From positions 1,882,501 through 1,946,500 of the forward strand of contig NZ_AP024452.1 in NCBI RefSeq assembly GCF_016865485.1: 64,000 nt of DNA, read 5' to 3'. The stretch's first letter is position 1; the number at the start of each line of letters is the position of its first letter. Of the stretch, positions 16,435-59,648 are shown piece by piece. The DNA comes from Luteitalea sp. TBR-22. Its GTDB lineage: Bacteria; Acidobacteriota; Vicinamibacteria; Vicinamibacterales; Vicinamibacteraceae. The position numbers and the translations under genes are program-made. Under the pieces are notes generated by a model. The model was not told the DNA's origin. It made no database searches and worked only from the letters and a program-made list of their open reading frames with translations.

Positions 16435-17145
16435 ATGGTCATCTCCCCCGAATCCACCGTCGCCGACATCGCCACCCAGGCGCCGGCCACCATCGCCATC
16501 TTCCAGCGCCACCAGATCGACTTCTGCTGTGGCGGCCGGCAACCGCTCGGCACCGTGTGCGCCGAGCGCGGGATCAACGCCGACCTGCTCGTCACCGAGC
16601 TGGTCGCCGCCGCCACCCCGGCCAACGCCGAGCCGACGTGGGCCGATGCGACGCTCACCGCGCTGGTCGGTCACATCCAGCAGCGCTACCACGCGCACCT
16701 GCGGCAGGAGCTGCCGCGCCTGGCGGCCATGGTGGACAAGGTGGTCAGTCGCCACGGCGACCACCTGCCCGACGTGCTGCCGCCGCTGCAGGAGACCTTC
16801 GCGGCCCTGACCGAGGAACTGCTCACCCACATGGAGAAGGAGGACCGCGTCCTCTTCCCGTTCATCGTGGGCCTCGACCAGGGCCGGCCGGTGACGCCCG
16901 AGACCGCCGAGTGGATCGCCGCGCCGATCTCGGTGATGGAAGCGGAGCACGAGTCGGCCGGCGCCGCGCTCGCCACGATGCGGCAGCTCACTGACGATTA
17001 CACGCCACCGGAGTGGGCCTGTCCGACGTTCCGCGGCCTGTACTTCGGCCTGTCGCAGTTCGAGACGGACATGCACCTGCACGTCCATCTCGAGAACCAC
17101 ATCCTGTTCCCGCGCGCCGCGCAGTTGGCGGCGAGGCGAGCCTAG
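16435..17145 (+). CDS. ytfE: RIC family di-iron (Fe-S cluster) repair protein
   Basis: A 236-residue protein of the YtfE/ScdA family, which repairs iron-sulfur clusters damaged by nitric oxide or oxidants. The N-terminal ScdA_N domain has the signature IDFCCGG (residues about 29-35). The C-terminal hemerythrin-like four-helix bundle supplies di-iron ligands in YHAHLRQELP, LTHMEKEDRVLFP, EAEHESAG and MHLHVHLENHILFPRA. It is divergent from the CRP/FNR gene and preceded by the shared operator, fitting induction by nitrogen oxides. The ATG has no clear ribosome site. Confidence 0.93.
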   Translation: MVISPESTVADIATQAPATIAIFQRHQIDFCCGGRQPLGTVCAERGINADLLVTELVAAATPANAEPTWADATLTALVGHIQQRYHAHLRQELPRLAAMVDKVVSRHGDHLPDVLPPLQETFAALTEELLTHMEKEDRVLFPFIVGLDQGRPVTPETAEWIAAPISVMEAEHESAGAALATMRQLTDDYTPPEWACPTFRGLYFGLSQFETDMHLHVHLENHILFPRAAQLAARRA

Positions 17146-18169: not shown

Positions 18170-19489
18170 TTGCCCACCCGTCTGCGATCCCTGCTTCCCT
18201 TCGTCCTGGCTGGACTGGCTGCGCTGTGCGCGGTCGAGGCGTCGGCGCAACCCTACGCGCTGCTCATCAAGGGGGGCCACGTCATCGATCCGAAGAACGG
18301 CCGCGACGGCGTGATGGACGTCGCCATCGCCGACGGCAAGGTCGCCGAGGTCGCCGCCTCGATCGATGCCGCGAAGGCCAGGAAGGTCGTCGACGCCACC
18401 GGCCTGTACGTGACGCCAGGCCTGATCGACATCCACGCGCACGTGTTCTTCGGCACCGAGCCCGACGCCTACCTGAGCAACGGCCTGGTGGCCGTGCCGC
18501 CCGACAGCCACTCGTTCCGCAGCGGCCAGACGACGCTGGTGGACGTCGGCGGCGCCGGCTGGCGCAACTTCGCGCAGTTCAAGACCAACATCATCGACAC
18601 GTCGAAGACCCGCGTGCTGTCGTTCCTGAACATCGTGGGGTCGGGGATGAAGGGCGGTCCGGTCGAGCAGAACCTGGGCGACATGGACGCCAAGCTGACC
18701 GCCCTGCGCATCAAGCAGCATCCGGGGCTGATCGTCGGCATCAAGGTCGCGCACTTCCAGGGCTCCGAGTGGGATCCGGTCGACCGCGCCGTGCAGGCCG
18801 GCACCGACGCCAACGTGCCCGTCATGATCGACTTCGGCGGCAACAACCCGCCGCTGTCGCTCGACGACCTCCTGAACAAGCACCTGCGCCCGGGCGACAT
18901 CTTCACGCACATGTACGCCCACGTCCGTGGCCGCATGCCCATCGTGAACGAGCGTGGGCAGGTCGAGCCGTACGTGATCGCGGCGCGCAAGCGCGGGGTC
19001 ATCTTCGACGTCGGCCACGGTGGCGGCTCGTTCCTCTGGCGGCAGGCCGTGCCGGCCACCAGGCAGGGGTTCTACCCGGACGTGATCAGCACCGACTTGC
19101 ACACCGGCAGCATGAACGGCGGCATGAAGGACATCCTCAACACGATGTCCAAGCTGCTGAACCTCGGCATGCCGCTGGCCGACGTGATCAAGGCCAACAC
19201 CGCCAGGGCCGCCTCGGTCATCAAGCGTGAGGACCTCGGGCACCTCGGGGTCGGCAGCGAGGCCGACCTCGCCGTGTTTGCGGTCCGCAAGGGCGAGTTC
19301 GGCTTCATCGACTCGTCGGGCGGGCGCATGCCCGGCACGCAGAAGCTGGAGTGCGAACTGACGCTGCGCGCCGGACAGGTGGTGTGGGACCTCAACGGCC
19401 GCGCCGCGGCCGACTGGGCGACGATGCCGACCGAGCCGCAGGGCGGCAACGCCACGCGCCCGCGCCGCACGTCGTCGCAGGAGCAGTGA
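18170..19489 (+). CDS. exported amidohydrolase/deacetylase-family metallohydrolase
   Basis: A 439-residue protein. I chose the TTG at 18170 because GGAGGA lies 7 nt upstream and it opens a good signal peptide (SLLPFVLAGLAALCAVEASA). The amidohydrolase barrel has metal motif DIHAHVF, a central Lys/His in GIKVAHFQGSEW, a His in THMYAHVRGR and the catalytic Asp in ISTDLHTGSMNG. It resembles the EF_0837/AHA_3915 group, often encoded beside selA-related PLP enzymes, as here. The likely reaction is hydrolysis of an N-acyl or cyclic amide outside the cytoplasm. Its stop overlaps the RidA gene start. Confidence 0.85.
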   Translation: MPTRLRSLLPFVLAGLAALCAVEASAQPYALLIKGGHVIDPKNGRDGVMDVAIADGKVAEVAASIDAAKARKVVDATGLYVTPGLIDIHAHVFFGTEPDAYLSNGLVAVPPDSHSFRSGQTTLVDVGGAGWRNFAQFKTNIIDTSKTRVLSFLNIVGSGMKGGPVEQNLGDMDAKLTALRIKQHPGLIVGIKVAHFQGSEWDPVDRAVQAGTDANVPVMIDFGGNNPPLSLDDLLNKHLRPGDIFTHMYAHVRGRMPIVNERGQVEPYVIAARKRGVIFDVGHGGGSFLWRQAVPATRQGFYPDVISTDLHTGSMNGGMKDILNTMSKLLNLGMPLADVIKANTARAASVIKREDLGHLGVGSEADLAVFAVRKGEFGFIDSSGGRMPGTQKLECELTLRAGQVVWDLNGRAAADWATMPTEPQGGNATRPRRTSSQEQ

Positions 19490-20652
19490 TGCGCGCCGGG
19501 ACGATCGCGCTCGCCGTCGCGCTGGCCTGCGTGGCGCTGCCCGCGCAGGCGCAGCGACGGGTGATCCGGCCGGAGGGCGCCCCGACCGATCGTCCGTACT
19601 CGCCGGGCATCCAGGTCGGGCAGACGCTGTACATCTCGGGTCAGCTCGGCCTGCCCGGCACCGGCCCGACGCCCGCGACGATGGACGCGCAGGCCCGGCA
19701 GGCGATGGACGGGATCGGCGCCGTGCTGAAGGCGGCCGGCCTCGGCTACGAGCACCTCGTGAAGTGCCAGGTGTACCTGGCCAACATGGATGACTACGCC
19801 GCGATGAACGCCGCGTACCAGTCCTACTTCAAGGGCCGGGTGCCGGCCCGCACGACAATCCAGGCCGCGGCGCTGCCGTCGAAGGCGGGCGTGGAGATCG
19901 GCTGCATCGCCTACGCCGACCTCGCATCGATCTCGGTCGTGACCCCGCCCGCCGGCACGCTGCCCGCGCCGCTCGGCCCGTATTCGCCGGCCGTCTGGGC
20001 CGGCGACACCCTGTACCTGTCGGGCATGGGCGGGCAGAATCCGGCCACGAAGGCGGTGGCCGAGGACGTGCCCGGGCAGGTGACGCAGACCATCGCCAAC
20101 ATCTCGACGACGTTGAAGGCGGCGTCGCTCGAGTTGCGTGACGTCGTGTCCACGCAGGGCTACCTGACGCGCCTGGACGAAGTGGGGCAGTATCCGCCGG
20201 CCTTCACCGCGGCGTTCGCGCCACTGCCGCTGCCGGCGCGCGGGCTGGTGGTGGTGCCGCGCCTGCCGGGACCCATCCGCGCGGAGCTGACGTTTGTGGC
20301 CGTCCGCCCGACCGTCAAGCGCGAGCCCATCGGCGATGTCGAGAAGCCGCACGCCATCAAGGCGGGGGCCACGTTGTACGCCGGTCCGGAGGAAGCGCCC
20401 GACGCCGGGACGACGACAGAGGCTCAGGCGCGTGAGACTTTCGCCTACCTGCGTGGCACCCTGAGCGAGGCGGGACTGACGATGCGAGACGTCGCGTCGG
20501 TGACGGTGTACCTCAGCGACCTGGCCGACATGCCGGCGATGAACGCCGTGTTCAAGGAGACGTTCCCCGTCGATCCACCGGCGCGCGTGACCCTGCAGGT
20601 CCAGCCGGAAGGAAAGGAACGGATTCGCGTCGCGCTGATCGCCGCACGCTGA
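19489..20652 (+). CDS. exported protein with three tandem RidA domains
   Basis: A 387-residue protein with a signal peptide (residues 1-21, cleavage after PAQAQ). Three YjgF/RidA domains follow: about 23-135, 140-262 and 265-387. RidA hydrolyses reactive enamine/imine intermediates from PLP enzymes, using a conserved Arg. The Arg is present in each domain (PARTTIQ, PARGLVV, PARVTLQ). The partner Glu is present in domains 1 and 2 (VEIGC, AELTF) but replaced in domain 3 (RIRVAL). Three domains in one chain would mimic the RidA trimer. It overlaps the metallohydrolase stop and precedes the PLP enzyme, so a coupled pathway is likely. Confidence 0.88.
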   Translation: MRAGTIALAVALACVALPAQAQRRVIRPEGAPTDRPYSPGIQVGQTLYISGQLGLPGTGPTPATMDAQARQAMDGIGAVLKAAGLGYEHLVKCQVYLANMDDYAAMNAAYQSYFKGRVPARTTIQAAALPSKAGVEIGCIAYADLASISVVTPPAGTLPAPLGPYSPAVWAGDTLYLSGMGGQNPATKAVAEDVPGQVTQTIANISTTLKAASLELRDVVSTQGYLTRLDEVGQYPPAFTAAFAPLPLPARGLVVVPRLPGPIRAELTFVAVRPTVKREPIGDVEKPHAIKAGATLYAGPEEAPDAGTTTEAQARETFAYLRGTLSEAGLTMRDVASVTVYLSDLADMPAMNAVFKETFPVDPPARVTLQVQPEGKERIRVALIAAR

Positions 20653-20802: not shown

Positions 20803-22002
20803 ATGCTGACCCGACGTACCTTCTTCGAGCGCCTGTCCACGCTGCCCCTGGTGGGCGGCTTCCTCGGCGGCGCCGCCACCAGCGCCGCGGCGGCCACGCC
20901 GATGACGCGCGACTACTTCAAGGAACTCGGCGTCCGGCCGTTCATCAACGCGGCGGGCACCTACACCGACATGACCGCGTCGCTGATGCCGCCCGAGGTG
21001 ATGGCGGCCATCAACTACGCGTCGAAGCATTACGTGCCGCTCAACGAGCTGCACGACAAGGTGGGCGAGCGCATCGCGACGCTCGTGAAGGCGGAGGCGG
21101 CGCTGGTGTCGTCGGGCGCCGCGTCGGCCATCACGCTCGGCACGGCCGGCGTGCTCACCGGCGGCGACCCGCAGAAGGTGATCGACCTGCCGAACCTGGC
21201 GGGCATGAAGAGCGAGGTCATCATGCTGAAGTCGCATCGCTTCGGCTACGACCATGCGGTGCGCAACTGCGGCGTGAAGATCGTCGAGGTGGAGACGGCC
21301 GCCGAACTCGAGAAGGCGATCAACCCGCAGACGGCGATGATGCTCTTCTACAACAACAACAACTCGGTCGGGCAGGTGCGCGACGAGGAGTTCGTGCGTC
21401 TCGGCAAGAAGCACGGCATCCCGACGATGAACGACTGCGCGGCAGACGTGCCGCCGGTCGAGAACCTCTGGAAGTACACGGCGATGGGCTTCGATCTGGT
21501 GTGCTTCTCTGGCGGCAAGGGCATCCGCGGCCCGCAGAGCGCCGGGCTGCTGCTCGGGCGCAAGGACCTGATCAAGGCGGCGCGCGCCAATGCGGCGCCC
21601 AACGGCAACTCCATCGGCCGCGGCATGAAAGTGAACAAGGAGGAGATGCTGGGCATGCTGGCCGCGATCGAGCGCTTCGTGAAGCTCGACCACGCAGCCC
21701 TCGACCGCGAGTACACCCGTCGCGCCGAACTGATCCTCAAGAGCCTCGCCGGGCTGCCGGGCATCACGGCCGGCATCACCGTGCCCGAAGTGGCCAACCA
21801 CGTGCCTCACGTGGAGATCAAGATCGACGCGGCGGCCGCCGGGATCACCGGCCCCGAGATCTCGAAGAAGCTCCGCGAGGGCACGCCGTCGATCGGCGTC
21901 CGTCCGGGCGACGACCTCATGATCGGCGTGTGGATGATGCAGCCCGGCGACGAGGTCGTCGTCGCCCGCCGGCTGAAGGAAGTGATCACGAAGAAGGCGT
22001 GA
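20803..22002 (+). CDS. Tat-exported selA-related PLP enzyme
   Basis: A 399-residue protein. The N-terminus is a twin-arginine signal (TRRTFFERLSTLPLVGGFLG). The body matches the selA-related PLP family that includes D-glucosaminate-6-phosphate ammonia-lyase: LGVRPFINAAGTYTDMT at about 44, AALVSSGAASAITLG at about 100, and the PLP-lysine in LVCFSGGKGIRGPQSAGLLL at about 237. Tat export would allow it to leave the cell folded with PLP bound. It probably eliminates ammonia from an amino acid or amino-sugar acid, releasing an enamine that the adjacent RidA proteins could hydrolyse. The exact substrate is unknown. Confidence 0.85.
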   Translation: MLTRRTFFERLSTLPLVGGFLGGAATSAAAATPMTRDYFKELGVRPFINAAGTYTDMTASLMPPEVMAAINYASKHYVPLNELHDKVGERIATLVKAEAALVSSGAASAITLGTAGVLTGGDPQKVIDLPNLAGMKSEVIMLKSHRFGYDHAVRNCGVKIVEVETAAELEKAINPQTAMMLFYNNNNSVGQVRDEEFVRLGKKHGIPTMNDCAADVPPVENLWKYTAMGFDLVCFSGGKGIRGPQSAGLLLGRKDLIKAARANAAPNGNSIGRGMKVNKEEMLGMLAAIERFVKLDHAALDREYTRRAELILKSLAGLPGITAGITVPEVANHVPHVEIKIDAAAAGITGPEISKKLREGTPSIGVRPGDDLMIGVWMMQPGDEVVVARRLKEVITKKA

Positions 22003-22099: not shown

Positions 22100-22591
22100 T
22101 CAGAGCGCCGCGATGCAGTCCATCTCCACCAGCGACTTGCCGGGGATGCCGCCGTACGCGGCAATCGTCGTGCGGACCGGCGGGTTGGCGCCGAAGCGGC
22201 CGCGGAACACCTCGTTCATCGCCGCGTAGTCCTGCAGGTCGTGCAGGTACACGTTCACCTTCAGCACCTTCTCCATCGACGAGCCGGCCTTCTTCAGCTC
22301 GCTCTCCAGGGCGTCGAGCACCTTCGCCGTGTGCAGCTTGATGTCGCCTTCCTCGTGGTAGCCCTTGCCGGCCACGAACACGAGCCCGCCCGTGTGGACC
22401 TTGACTGCCGAGAAGAGCGGCGCCTGCTTCGGCGCCTCGGCCTGCTGGGCGGCATCGGGGATCGTCACGGTGGCGCCGCCCGGGGCGGCGTGGGCCTTGC
22501 CGCCGAAGAGCCCGGCGGCGGTGGCGCCGGCCGCGGCGAGGAGTGAACGGAAGGCGGAACGACGCGAGGACACGGGCTGGGTGGCTGGCAC
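22100..22591 (-). CDS. exported single-domain RidA protein
   Basis: A 163-residue protein with a twin-arginine-like N-terminus (SSRRSAFRSLLAAAGATAAG). The RidA domain spans about residues 55-163 and keeps the catalytic Arg (VRTTIAAYGGIP) and Glu (LVEMDCIAA). The GTG at 22591 was chosen because AGGAG lies 8 nt upstream and an earlier ATG gives an implausible leader. It converges on the PLP enzyme gene and probably shares the extracytoplasmic imine-hydrolysis task with the triple-RidA protein. Confidence 0.85.
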   Translation of the reverse strand: MPATQPVSSRRSAFRSLLAAAGATAAGLFGGKAHAAPGGATVTIPDAAQQAEAPKQAPLFSAVKVHTGGLVFVAGKGYHEEGDIKLHTAKVLDALESELKKAGSSMEKVLKVNVYLHDLQDYAAMNEVFRGRFGANPPVRTTIAAYGGIPGKSLVEMDCIAAL

Positions 22592-22737
22592 GCGAGAATC
22601 TCCTGGGTTGGTCGGGGGGAGGCAGGCCTGTCTGACGGCCCGAGAATAGCCGCGCCCTGCGCCGCCGGCAAGCCTTCCCAACAGCGGCGTGGACATGGCG
22701 GGCAATTTCGACTACGTTGGGCGCGTTCCATCGAACT

Positions 22738-22771: not shown

Positions 22772-22868
22772 GGATGTGCGTTCGCTCTCCGGCGGTTGGT
22801 CTGGCACGAGCCACGGCTCTGGCCACGAACGGAGCGAGCGCCGCCCCCCGTCCGAGGAGGATGTCCGC

Positions 22869-25800
22869 GTGCTCCGAGCCCTGAGTTCCGCCGTTCTGGC
22901 ACTCCTGTTGTCCACACCCGCGTTCGCGCAGCTCGCTTCGCAAACCGGCCTGATCGGCACCGTCACCGACTCGGGCGGCGGCATCCTGCCGGGCGCCACC
23001 GTCACGGCGGTGAACACGGGCACGCAGGCGACCCTCACCGGCGTGACCAACGAGGCCGGCGTCTACCAGTTCAACGCGGTGCCGATTGGCACGTACGAAA
23101 TCACGATCAGCCTCCAGGGCTTCCAGACCTTCAAGGCGACCAACGTCCGGGTCGGATCCAATCAGGTCGCCCGCCAGGACGCGGTGCTCGCCGTGGGCGA
23201 CCTGTCTGAGACGATCACCGTCGAGGCGGCCAACACGACGGTCCAGACCGACCGCGCCGCGGTGTCGCAGACGGTCGAGGCGCGCGCGGTCACCGACCTG
23301 CCGTCGAGCGGCCGCAACGTCTGGCAGATGGCCTCGACGACGCCCGGCGTGCTGCGCGGCAACACGACCGACATCGGCCTGTCGTTCCGCGGCGCCGGCC
23401 AGCGCGAGATCCAGAACAGCCTGACCATGGACGGCATCAACGCCACGTCCAACCTGCTCGCGATGACCAGCATGCGGCCGATGGCCGACGCGGTGCAGGA
23501 AGTGGCGGTGCAGACAGGGAGCACGTCGGCCGAGTACGGGTCGTACCTGGGCGTGCACGTCAACGTGGTGACCAAGGCGGGCACCAACCTGTTCCACGGC
23601 GCGCTGTTCGAGTACTTCCAGGACGACGCGCTCGAGAGCCGCGGGTACTTCGACAACCCGAACCTGCCCGAGCCGCCCAAGCGCAGCAACCAGTACGGCA
23701 TGCAGTTCGACGGCCCCGTGATCATCCCGGGCCTCTACAACGGCCGCAACAAGACGTTCTTCATGGGCGCCTACGAGGGGCAGCGGTCCAACCGCACCAC
23801 GAGCCCGATCGGCTCGGTGCCGACCGAGAAGATGCGGCGTGGCGACTTCAGCGAGATCGCGACCCAGATCGTCAACCCGTACACGAAGGTGCCGTACCCG
23901 GGGAACCAGATCCCGCTGTCGCAGTTCTCCGACGAGGCCGTCCGCCTGATGCAGTACTTCCCGCTGCCGACCGGCCCCGGCACGGCCAACAACTACCAGG
24001 GCCCCGTCCTCACCGAGACCGAGGTCGACCAGATCCTCGCCCGCGTCGACCAGAACATCACCAACTCGGCCCGCATGTACGTGCGCTACAACTGGGTGGA
24101 TGCCTTCGACGGCTTCGGCGCGCTCAGCCCGACGCAGGGCCTGTACCAGCCGCGCGTCAACAAGAACACGCTGGTGTCGTACCAGCAGACGCTGTCGCCG
24201 ACCCTGCTCAACGACTTCCGCATCGGCTACCACCGCATCGACTTCGACTCGCTGAACAACTTCACGCTGGACGGCAACACGACGGCCGGCGCCGACATCG
24301 GCATCCCCGGCTTCGACGGCGACGTCAAGTACAACAACCCCGGCATCCCCACCATCGGCATCACCGCGTTCAGCGGCCTCGGCAACGGCGGCACCAACTG
24401 GTACCAGTTCGACACCACGTTCCAGATGTCGAACGTGCTGTCGTGGACGAAGGGCAAGCACAACATCCGCACGGGCTTCGACCTGCGCAAGATGGCCACG
24501 GGGCGACGAGCGGCCAACAGCCCGCGCGGCGCGTTCAACTTCAACGGGCAGATGACCGGCTACTCGGTGGCCGACTTCCTCGTCGGCGTGCCGATCTCGG
24601 TGACCACGCCGGTCAACCAGGTGCAGGGGCACGTGGGGCAGTGGCGCAACGGCTTCTTCATCAACGACGTGTGGCAGGCGACGCGGAACATGACGCTGAG
24701 CCTCGGCCTGCGGTACGAGCGCAACACGCCGGTGCAGACCTACGAGGGCTACGCGTCGATGCTCGACGCCTCGCAGACGCAGATCATCCCGACGTCGTTC
24801 CCGGCCGTCGGCTTCGAGTTCCACGAGCCCAACACGAAGGACTGGGGGCCGCGCCTCGGCGCCACCTACCGCCTGACCGACAAGACCGTGCTGCGGGCCG
24901 GCTGGGGCATCTACTACAACCCCAACCAGATGAACTCGTTCACGTTCCTCACCAACAACCCGCCGATCGCCGCCGAGTTCACCTTCAACAACAACCCGGC
25001 CAACCCGACGCTGTCGTTCGATCAGCCGTTCGGTACCGTCGGCCCCGGCGGGCCGCCGAACATGATCACGCCGAACCGGCGCATGCCGAACGCCACGAAG
25101 AACCAGTGGAGCGCCGACCTGCAGCACGAGATCTTCGGCAGCACCGTCGTCGAGCTGCAGTACCTGGCCTCGCGTACCAAGAACCTCGATCGGAGCTACT
25201 ACAACAACACGCCGCTGCCGGGGCCGGGCGCGATCGATCCCCGGCGCCCGAACCAGTTGTTCCGCGACATCCGCACCATCCAGAACGACCTCATCGCCAA
25301 CTACGACTCGGTGGCGGTGGTGGCGCGTCGCCGCATGACCAACGGGTTCCTGCTCAACGCGCACTACACCTGGTCCAAGACGCGCGACATGGCCACCCAC
25401 TCCAACGGCGGCGGCCGCATCGTCAACAACTACGACATCTGGAGCGATTACGGCCCGGCCAACTGGGACGTGCCGCACCGCCTCGTGGTGAGCTACGTGT
25501 GGGACATGCCGTTCTTCCGTGACTCGGACAACTACTTCCTGCGCGGCATCGTCGGCGGCTGGCAGATTGCGGGCGTCACGACGATCCAGAGCGGCACGCC
25601 GCTCAACGTGACGATCCAGCCTGACCGCGCCAACACGGGCCAGCCCAACCAGCGGCCGAACCTGGTGAACGCCAACGTGACCCTGAGCTGCCAGGCCAAC
25701 CCGAACGGCCTCGGCCTGGTCGGCTGCATCGACCCTGCGGCCTTCGCGTTGCCGGACCCGTTCACCTACGGCAACACGCCGCGCAACTACCTGCGCGGGC

Positions 25801-26009
25801 CGAAGTACAGCCAGACCGACGTGTCGTTCATGAAGAACTTCGCCACCGGCGGCCGCTCGCGCATCCAGCTTCGTGCCGAGGTGTTCAACCTGTTCAACCA
25901 GGTGAACTGGGGCGCCCCGGGCACGACGTTCGGCGCCGCCAACTTCGGCATCATCGCGTCGGCCGACACGATGCGCCGCGCCGAGCTCGGTGTGAAGTTC
26001 CTGTTCTAG
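22869..26009 (+). CDS. Oar-like TonB-dependent receptor with carboxypeptidase-like N-terminal domain
   Basis: A 1046-residue outer-membrane protein. A signal peptide (SSAVLALLLSTPAFAQ) is followed by a carboxypeptidase-regulatory-like domain (about 25-105, GLIGTVTDSGGGILPGATVT). Next come a plug domain (about 120-230, with LTMDGINATSNL and SAEYGSYLGVHVNVVTKAGT) and a 22-strand-type barrel ending in aromatic Phe (ELGVKFLF). No TonB box is obvious. Such receptors are abundant in acidobacteria and import large nutrients or act in secretion. The GTG is preceded by GAGGAGG. Adjacent to the exported catabolic cluster, it may import that substrate. Confidence 0.92.
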   Translation: MLRALSSAVLALLLSTPAFAQLASQTGLIGTVTDSGGGILPGATVTAVNTGTQATLTGVTNEAGVYQFNAVPIGTYEITISLQGFQTFKATNVRVGSNQVARQDAVLAVGDLSETITVEAANTTVQTDRAAVSQTVEARAVTDLPSSGRNVWQMASTTPGVLRGNTTDIGLSFRGAGQREIQNSLTMDGINATSNLLAMTSMRPMADAVQEVAVQTGSTSAEYGSYLGVHVNVVTKAGTNLFHGALFEYFQDDALESRGYFDNPNLPEPPKRSNQYGMQFDGPVIIPGLYNGRNKTFFMGAYEGQRSNRTTSPIGSVPTEKMRRGDFSEIATQIVNPYTKVPYPGNQIPLSQFSDEAVRLMQYFPLPTGPGTANNYQGPVLTETEVDQILARVDQNITNSARMYVRYNWVDAFDGFGALSPTQGLYQPRVNKNTLVSYQQTLSPTLLNDFRIGYHRIDFDSLNNFTLDGNTTAGADIGIPGFDGDVKYNNPGIPTIGITAFSGLGNGGTNWYQFDTTFQMSNVLSWTKGKHNIRTGFDLRKMATGRRAANSPRGAFNFNGQMTGYSVADFLVGVPISVTTPVNQVQGHVGQWRNGFFINDVWQATRNMTLSLGLRYERNTPVQTYEGYASMLDASQTQIIPTSFPAVGFEFHEPNTKDWGPRLGATYRLTDKTVLRAGWGIYYNPNQMNSFTFLTNNPPIAAEFTFNNNPANPTLSFDQPFGTVGPGGPPNMITPNRRMPNATKNQWSADLQHEIFGSTVVELQYLASRTKNLDRSYYNNTPLPGPGAIDPRRPNQLFRDIRTIQNDLIANYDSVAVVARRRMTNGFLLNAHYTWSKTRDMATHSNGGGRIVNNYDIWSDYGPANWDVPHRLVVSYVWDMPFFRDSDNYFLRGIVGGWQIAGVTTIQSGTPLNVTIQPDRANTGQPNQRPNLVNANVTLSCQANPNGLGLVGCIDPAAFALPDPFTYGNTPRNYLRGPKYSQTDVSFMKNFATGGRSRIQLRAEVFNLFNQVNWGAPGTTFGAANFGIIASADTMRRAELGVKFLF

Positions 26010-58004: not shown

Positions 58005-59648
58005 ATGCCTCCCTCGACCTCGCCCGCCGGCTGGAGCCGGCGGCAGATCTTCCGCGCCGCGCAGGCGCTCGGCCTCGGTTCGCTCGTGCCCGGTTCCGCG
58101 GTCGCGGCATCGCAGGGGGCGGCAGGCGCGCGTCGTGCCACGGCTGCGCCCGTGGTGCCCGCCGGGCCGTCAGGGAAGGAGCTGTACGCCAGCCTCGGCG
58201 TGCGGCCGATCATCAACGCGCGGGGCACGTTCACGATCATCGGCGGCTCGGTGGAACTGCCGGAGGTGCGCGCTGCGAAGGCGGCGGCAAACCAGCACTA
58301 CGCCAACTTCGAGGAGTTGATGGAGGCGGCGGGGAAGCGGCTCGCCGAGCTGACCGGCGCCGAGTGGGGCATGGTGAGCTCCGGCTGCGCGGCGGCGATC
58401 TCGCACGCGACGGCCGCATGCGTGGCGGGCGGCAATCCCGACCTGCACGTGCGGCTGCCTGATCTCACTGGCTTCGCGAAGACGGAAGTCATCATCCCGA
58501 CGCACTCGCGCAACGTCTACGACGCCGCCGTCCGCGCCGTGGGCGTCACCATCGTCGAGGTCGACACGCCGGAGCAACTCGCGCTGGCGATCGGGCCGAA
58601 GACGGCGATGATCTACTTCTTCACGACGCCGCGCAACGAAACGGGACCGATGTCGCTCGAGAACATCGCGCGCATCGCCAGGCCGCAGGGCGTGCCGATC
58701 ATGGTGGATGCGGCGGCCGAGATCCTCACCGTGCCCAACATCCACCTGCAGCGGGGTGCGACGCTGGTGGGCTACAGCGGCGGCAAGATCCTCCGCGGGC
58801 CGCAGACGGCGGGGATCCTGCTCGGGCGCAAGGACCTCGTGCAGGCCGCCTGGATGCACAGCGCGCCGCACCATGGCTACGCGCGGGCGATGAAGGTGGG
58901 CCGCGAGGAGGTCGTGGCGATGCTCGTCGCCGTGGAGCGGTGGGTCAAGGGCGATCGCGCTGCGGAGTGGGCCGAGTGGGTGCGGCAGGCGGAGGTCATC
59001 GCCGCCGCGGCCGGCCGCGTGCCTGGCGTGACGGTGACCGTGGCGCGCGAGCCGTGGGAAGACCGGTCCAATCGCAGCCCGCGCGTGACGCTGCGGTGGG
59101 ACGCGGCCACCATCGGCCTGACCGGACAGCAGGCGGTGGACATCCTCTACAACGAGGAGCCGCGCATCACGGTGGGCGGTGCGTCTGGCGCCCGCCAGGG
59201 CGAGCCGGGCGACGCGGGCCTCACGCTGGCCACGTCGATGCTGCAGCCCGGCGACGAGACGATCGTCGGCGAGCGACTGCGGGCCGTACTCTCGGCCAAG
59301 CGGACGCTCGTGCCACCACCGGCTGCCGTGGCGCCGGCGGGCGAGGTCAGCGGGCAGTGGCGCGTCGAGATTGTGTACGTCGCCTCGCGCAGCACGCACA
59401 TCCTGCAGCTCCGCCAGCGAGGCGCGACAATCGAGGGATCGCACCAGGGTGATCTCGTCACGCGCGACCTGTCGGGGACGATGGACGGGGCGAAGGTGAC
59501 GTTCACGAGCCGCATCACCGAGCGGACCGGGAGTGCGCTGAACTACCGGTTCACGGGCGAGCTGTCGGGCGACACCATGTCGGGCACGATCGACATGGGC
59601 GAGTACCGCAGTGCGACGTTCACGGCGCGGCGCGTCGCCAGCGCCTGA
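58005..59648 (+). CDS. Tat-exported selA-related PLP enzyme with C-terminal lipocalin-like domain
   Basis: A 547-residue protein. Tat signal at the N-terminus (SRRQIFRAAQALGLGSLVPG). PLP domain at about 55-430 with LGVRPIINARGTFTIIGG, WGMVSSGCAAAISHATAACV and the PLP-lysine in GYSGGKILRGPQTAGILLGR. The last 100 residues (VSGQWRVEIVYVASRSTHIL to DMGEYRSATFTARRV) form a beta-rich, lipocalin-like module. The PLP half is paralogous to the enzyme at 20803-22002. Fusion to a small-molecule-binding domain in the periplasm is unusual and suggests a delivered or retained substrate. Confidence 0.85.
   Translation: MPPSTSPAGWSRRQIFRAAQALGLGSLVPGSAVAASQGAAGARRATAAPVVPAGPSGKELYASLGVRPIINARGTFTIIGGSVELPEVRAAKAAANQHYANFEELMEAAGKRLAELTGAEWGMVSSGCAAAISHATAACVAGGNPDLHVRLPDLTGFAKTEVIIPTHSRNVYDAAVRAVGVTIVEVDTPEQLALAIGPKTAMIYFFTTPRNETGPMSLENIARIARPQGVPIMVDAAAEILTVPNIHLQRGATLVGYSGGKILRGPQTAGILLGRKDLVQAAWMHSAPHHGYARAMKVGREEVVAMLVAVERWVKGDRAAEWAEWVRQAEVIAAAAGRVPGVTVTVAREPWEDRSNRSPRVTLRWDAATIGLTGQQAVDILYNEEPRITVGGASGARQGEPGDAGLTLATSMLQPGDETIVGERLRAVLSAKRTLVPPPAAVAPAGEVSGQWRVEIVYVASRSTHILQLRQRGATIEGSHQGDLVTRDLSGTMDGAKVTFTSRITERTGSALNYRFTGELSGDTMSGTIDMGEYRSATFTARRVASA

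Follow-up and report, generated by a model that had tools for sequence, protein, structure and literature searches.

RidA is normally a symmetric homotrimer, and its active sites are therefore not mutable one at a time. A gene of Luteitalea sp. TBR-22, which encodes three RidA domains in a single chain, raises the question whether the sites of such a fused trimer have remained equal, and in which reaction they would be used. The gene is contained in a stretch of 64,000 nucleotides of contig NZ_AP024452.1 (positions 1,882,501 to 1,946,500), here called the window; all positions are counted from its first letter. An earlier note on this DNA had proposed a pseudo-trimer with unequal sites, in which the catalytic Arg is present in every domain and the partner Glu is missing from the third, and had considered the architecture as new.

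The open reading frame starts with ATG at 19489 and ends with a stop codon at 20650-20652 (Table 1). The stop codon of the preceding amidohydrolase gene overlaps the start (TGATG), and a ribosome site (AGGAG) precedes the ATG; scans of the region from 17 to 23 kb for promoters and terminators found none. The Pfam profile PF01042 matched three stretches and scored 213.8 bits over the whole protein (cut-off 27.3), and TIGR00004 of NCBIfam scored 206.4 bits (curated cut-off 106.25). By profile the product belongs to the RidA/YjgF-YER057c-UK114 family, and the exact coordinates of the reading frame bear out the earlier statement that three RidA domains are contained in one polypeptide. It is thus a 3x-RidA, which is defined by three tandem RidA domains in one polypeptide; these fusions were named, and presumed to be covalent trimers, by Niehaus et al. 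2015 (PMC4433059).

The idea of a new architecture is ruled out by that description and by how common triple-Rids are in the window's order, where 87 of 162 genomes have them; the fold has other single-chain relatives in AtzD and chorismatase. What is new is a detail of a known architecture, namely a cleft with both its faces degenerate, in a cassette of exported enzymes. Compared, by description, with 3x-RidA of the type of EF_0115 from Enterococcus faecalis, the three tandem domains and the presumed covalent trimer are shared, whereas the export signal, the lineage-specific degenerate cleft and the linkage to a DgaE-like lyase distinguish the protein studied here. Four triple-Rid reading frames are present in the window's genome. 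Over the phylum as a whole they are rarer: 35 of 297 genomes gave a match, some of the weaker matches covering one domain only. The phylum that includes G317 (a Phycisphaerales genome) had triple-Rids in 2/199 genomes, the class that includes G318 (a Lysobacteraceae genome) in none of 274, and plasmids gave no match. Distant triples may have been missed in these searches, since the query alignment was drawn from the window's order.

Table 1. Positions of the exported triple-RidA, its domains and the adjoining genes in the window.
Feature	Position	Strand	Remarks
Amidohydrolase/deacetylase-family metallohydrolase (EF_0837/PRK09237 type)	18170..19489	+	~439 aa from TTG (start by inspection); NF006689; PDB relatives 8je0, 2ogj
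Exported triple-RidA (3x-RidA)	19489..20652	+	387 aa; PF01042 x3; AlphaFold2 pLDDT 94.4, pTM 0.93
Signal peptide MRAGTIALAVALACVALPAQA	19489..19551	+	Predicted from sequence; orthologues keep an export signal, some lipoprotein-like
Rid domain 1	19555..19923	+	Tyr17, Gly31, Asn88, Arg105 (19849), Pro114 and Glu120 (19894) present; Asn56 replaced by Gly
Rid domain 2	19924..20319	+	Tyr17, Gly31, Asn56, Pro114, Arg105 (20239) and Glu120 (20284) present; Asn88 replaced by Pro
Rid domain 3	20320..20649	+	Arg105 (20584) and Asn88 present; Glu120 replaced by Arg (20626); without Tyr17, Gly31, Asn56, Pro114
DgaE/SelA-like PLP ammonia-lyase	20803..22002	+	Twin-arginine signal MLTRRTFFERLS...; Schiff-base Lys kept (SGGKG)
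Stand-alone RidA, convergent	22100..22705	-	Twin-arginine signal SSRRSAFRSLLAAAGATAAGLFGGKAHA; PF01042, 64.5 bits; open frame, true start uncertain
TonB-dependent/Oar-like outer-membrane barrel (OMP_b-brl_4)	22776..26009	+	PF25183, 711 bits; syntenic

A structural model was obtained with AlphaFold2 from an alignment of 19 sequences. Its single domains matched RidA chains, the best of them at 1.2-2 Å, and the best match of the whole chain was chorismatase, with 273-275 residues aligned across all three domains and Z values of ~25 (for 4bps 273 residues, 2.8 Å and Z 25.4, covering model residues 23-365). This likeness is one of fold; no chorismatase family was among the matches listed in the Pfam and NCBIfam scans of the triple-Rid; AtzD was absent among the structural matches listed for the model. 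Model and match support a predicted compact barrel of three domains, i.e., a covalent pseudo-trimer. The fused chain might instead resemble a string of beads, assembling with other chains rather than within itself, the barrel being a predicted one; but the pTM of 0.93 was obtained with a single chain, the match to chorismatase, itself a single chain, preserves the order of the domains, and the cyclic pattern of residue losses described below also speaks against beads, which makes such an arrangement very improbable.

Residues were numbered according to E. coli TdcF, and seven residues of the pocket were compared (Y17, G31, N56, N88, R105, P114, E120). In the cleft of the RidA trimer, Arg105 and residue 107 are contributed by one subunit and Glu120 by the neighbouring subunit (PMC4960622; PMC1884159), and Asn88 is thought to orient Arg105 (PMC1884159). 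The full set of seven is present in none of the three domains (Table 1). Glu120 was confirmed to be missing from domain 3 alone; beyond the earlier note, this domain is also without Tyr17, Gly31, Asn56 and Pro114, and domain 2 is without Asn88. The subfamily of the window's protein has nine members (in G000-G005, in G598, and two in G601). All nine have Arg, Gln or Lys at the Glu120 position of domain 3 and have lost Asn88 of domain 2, and since the same pattern recurs in every member found, it is not due to chance. Arg105 of domain 2 was kept in seven of nine, with Val or Thr in the relatives in G004 and G003; the claim of a catalytic Arg in each domain therefore holds for the protein itself and fails as a statement about conservation.

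For comparison of residue losses, 103 distinct triple-Rids were extracted and grouped into 38 clusters at 60% identity. The Arg side of a domain was taken as R105 or N88, and in five rows where the automatic alignment broke down, Gln was entered manually at the Glu120 position of domain 3. Among the 38 clusters, loss on the Arg side of domain 2 coincided with loss of Glu in domain 3 (7/7 versus 2/31, p = 2.9e-6), and loss on the Arg side of domain 3 with loss of Glu in domain 1 (7/13 versus 0/25, p = 1.4e-4); no significant co-loss was seen for pairs taken backward (i-1) or within the same domain. The independent-pairs test of treekit was underpowered, and a rate-fitted simulation on the tree was therefore used in its stead. 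It gave P values of 0.0175 (domain 2/Glu3), 0.0045 (domain 3/Glu1) and 0.077 (third pair) for the forward pairs, of 0.47, about 0.18 and 1.0 for the backward pairs, and of 1.0, 1.0 and 0.24 within domains. Independent events of co-loss were rare: judged by eye on the tree, each of two sites had about four such lineages.

Over the 103 triple-Rids, loss on the Arg side of domain i is thus accompanied by loss of the Glu of the following domain (i+1), but not of the preceding one (i-1), which suggests a cyclic order R1/E2, R2/E3, R3/E1; this order and the geometry between domains are based on the co-loss statistics and the chorismatase match. On the basis of this order, R2/E3 looks like a site that is dead as a whole in the window's subfamily, and the other two sites look intact. 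Apparently, evolution has shut down one of three shared active sites and kept two. The unequal pseudo-trimer that had been proposed is well in line with the pTM of the model, the chorismatase match over three domains and this co-degeneration, the last of which points to two good sites and one dead.

Replacement by Ala at the equivalent of Glu120 had little effect in Salmonella RidA (PMC4433059), and loss of Glu alone therefore need not kill a site. If Glu120 is dispensable, all three clefts might work, the third consisting of the Arg of domain 2, which is after all retained in seven of nine subfamily members, and a remodelled partner, perhaps with another substrate. We regard this as unlikely, since the R2/E3 cleft is also without Asn88 in nine of nine members and without Arg in two, and domain 3 is without Gly31, Tyr17 and Pro114; losses on both faces of a cleft look like relaxed constraint.

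According to the two-site reading, which we prefer, the three domains would fold as one covalent pseudo-trimer with clefts between domains, each being formed in cyclic fashion by Arg105/Asn88 of one domain (i) and Glu120/Gly31 of the next (i+1); R1/E2 and R3/E1 would be intact, and R2/E3, degenerate on both sides, would probably be structural only by now. The single-domain enamine/imine deaminases of the RidA/YjgF/UK114 family (TdcF, AtRidA, HRSP12) have the same fold, Arg105/Glu120 clefts as found here at two of three positions, and a PLP enzyme as neighbour, but they are homotrimers, whereas the triple-Rid is one chain, asymmetric and exported.

Elsewhere it is the R3/E1 cleft that was lost, with the Arg side missing from domain 3 and Glu from domain 1, namely in the lineages L035, L066, L067, L073, L152, L155 and L169, the last of which has lost R2/E3 in addition. 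With natural triple fusions lacking either site, it should be directly testable how much each cleft contributes and whether Glu120 is needed.

Export was judged from the sequences themselves. A hydrophobic N-terminal stretch is present in 95 of the 103 triple-Rids, versus 11 of 32 single-domain Rids from the fetched loci, several of these 11 being copies of the exported neighbour RidA. That neighbour, the stand-alone RidA, possesses both Arg105 and Glu120, is conserved in G001-G004, and would be a second exported RidA of the cluster. The amidohydrolase carries a Sec-type signal peptide and scored 444 bits with NF006689 (cut-off 371). Among the listed titles and abstracts of a literature search, no description of an exported RidA was found.

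The order of amidohydrolase, triple-Rid and DgaE-like genes is conserved in G000-G004, with 71-87% identity of the partner genes, and extends to the barrel gene in G000, G001, G002 and G004; G003 has a short, partly rearranged contig, on which the four enzyme genes are still present. Two paralogous triple-Rids (G000:C1:5640381 and G001:C1:1594680) also adjoin DgaE-like genes. When loci were collected independently in the phylum via the DgaE-like family, about 11 of 30 had a Rid gene within 1.6 kb, the chance expectation being ~1% by our own estimate (about ten Rid loci in a genome of 6.5 Mb). No DgaE-like neighbour was present in the fetched stretch around three members of the subfamily, namely those in G005 and G598 and, of the two in G601, L151. 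In the main 3x-Rid clade the neighbours are mixed, without a single pathway, and include 2-thiouracil desulfurase/DUF1722, radical SAM, a PALP-type PLP enzyme and amidase. In L151 and L153, two relatives from outside the window's family, the place of the amidohydrolase beside the window-type triple-Rid is taken by a PIG-L-type deacetylase.

Could the pseudo-trimer have taken on another reaction, or the binding of a ligand, in the way of chorismatases or of the cyanuric acid hydrolase family? Chorismatase is the best whole-chain match (4bps, 5a3k; one chain spanning all three model domains, Z 25), but it shares only ~11% identity, its chemistry is different, and the likeness stays at the level of the fold. 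AtzD, with its Toblerone fold, likewise evolved by concatenation of three YjgF-like units and then acquired a new function (PMC3758960), but it has four-stranded units, an active site in the central barrel and a metal site. The sequence of the triple-Rid is clearly that of a RidA (TIGR00004, 206 bits versus a cut-off of 106), two complete Arg/Glu clefts have been retained, and the repeated linkage to PLP lyases is as expected of an imine deaminase; repurposing thus appears improbable, although less so than the string of beads.

The lyase belongs to the same PLP family as DGL/DgaE, but its score with TIGR01437 (196.6 bits) is below the curated cut-off of 385.3, another profile gave 184.5 versus 600 bits, and it has a Tat signal. 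In an alignment to DGL (7lc0/7lce), His162-His163 were replaced by Asn-Asn, the proton donor His163 thus being Asn; the same replacement was found in six loci, those of the window's lyase and of five relatives. DGL removes water from its substrate, His163 protonates the enamine, and an H163A variant stays active and releases the enamine (PMC9529869). The idea that, in the DgaE-like family at large, loss of the His pair explains the Rid neighbour was rejected: among loci found without Rid bias, 2 of 7 with His-His have a Rid neighbour versus about 1/4 of the others, i.e., no association was seen.

Deacetylation and deamination with participation of a RidA are known from the ong pathway of Pseudoalteromonas (OngB-OngC-OngD) for 2-acetamido-2-deoxy-gluconate, an oxidised chitin monomer, in which OngD is an essential RidA of unknown role (PMC9537276). 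Deacetylase, PLP deaminase and RidA are thus present in both systems, but the ong pathway is cytoplasmic, its RidA has a single domain, and its deacetylase and deaminase are annotated as D-aminoacylase and D-amino acid deaminase. The cluster of the window looks like a pathway for breakdown of amino compounds outside the inner membrane. A secreted deacetylase-type amidohydrolase would free an amino acid or amino-sugar acid, the Tat-signal DgaE-like lyase would act on the freed compound and release a 2-enamine/2-imine, and the two live clefts of the triple-Rid would hydrolyse this in the periplasm to a 2-keto acid and ammonia. We infer for the triple-Rid a deaminase activity, its substrate and a periplasmic location, and for the PLP enzyme the release of free enamine. 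By analogy, the substrate could be guessed to be an N-acylated D-amino acid or amino-sugar acid, because of the amidohydrolase family and because relatives in G598 and G601 have PIG-L deacetylases next to them.

That an exported two-cleft 3x-RidA pseudo-trimer hydrolyses the enamine or imine of the neighbouring lyase in the periplasm is considered reasonably probable. The more far-reaching notion of a periplasmic make-and-dispose pathway for free enamines, in which a lyase without the His pair would feed the asymmetric two-site RidA, together with the second RidA bearing a Tat signal, is put forward tentatively, with some doubt. If it is true, RidA would be an obligatory member of a pathway outside the cytoplasm instead of controlling damage inside it. 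More generally, a role in a catabolic pathway of the envelope is suggested for RidA by the export signals together with the DgaE-like neighbour.

Several other observations concern the surroundings of these genes. A protein with ScdA_N and hemerythrin parts (RIC/YtfE type; 16435-17145, +) is encoded 5' of the cluster and is syntenic in G001, G002 and G004. The window contains a second DgaE/SelA-like PLP enzyme (58005-59648, +; frame of 547 aa) with Pro-Arg at the positions of His162-163; neither a Rid nor an amidohydrolase gene lies within 1.6 kb of it. G001 and G002 have a similar gene, located just downstream of the TonB-type barrel. Two-domain Rids were found directly beside DgaE-like genes in L210 (G096) and L212 (G219), possibly an intermediate of the triple fusion. 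In L136 (G601:C6) a triple-Rid gene shares one base with the overlapping gene for a PALP-type PLP enzyme, a classical source of RidA substrate, whose fold is that of threonine dehydratase and serine racemase.
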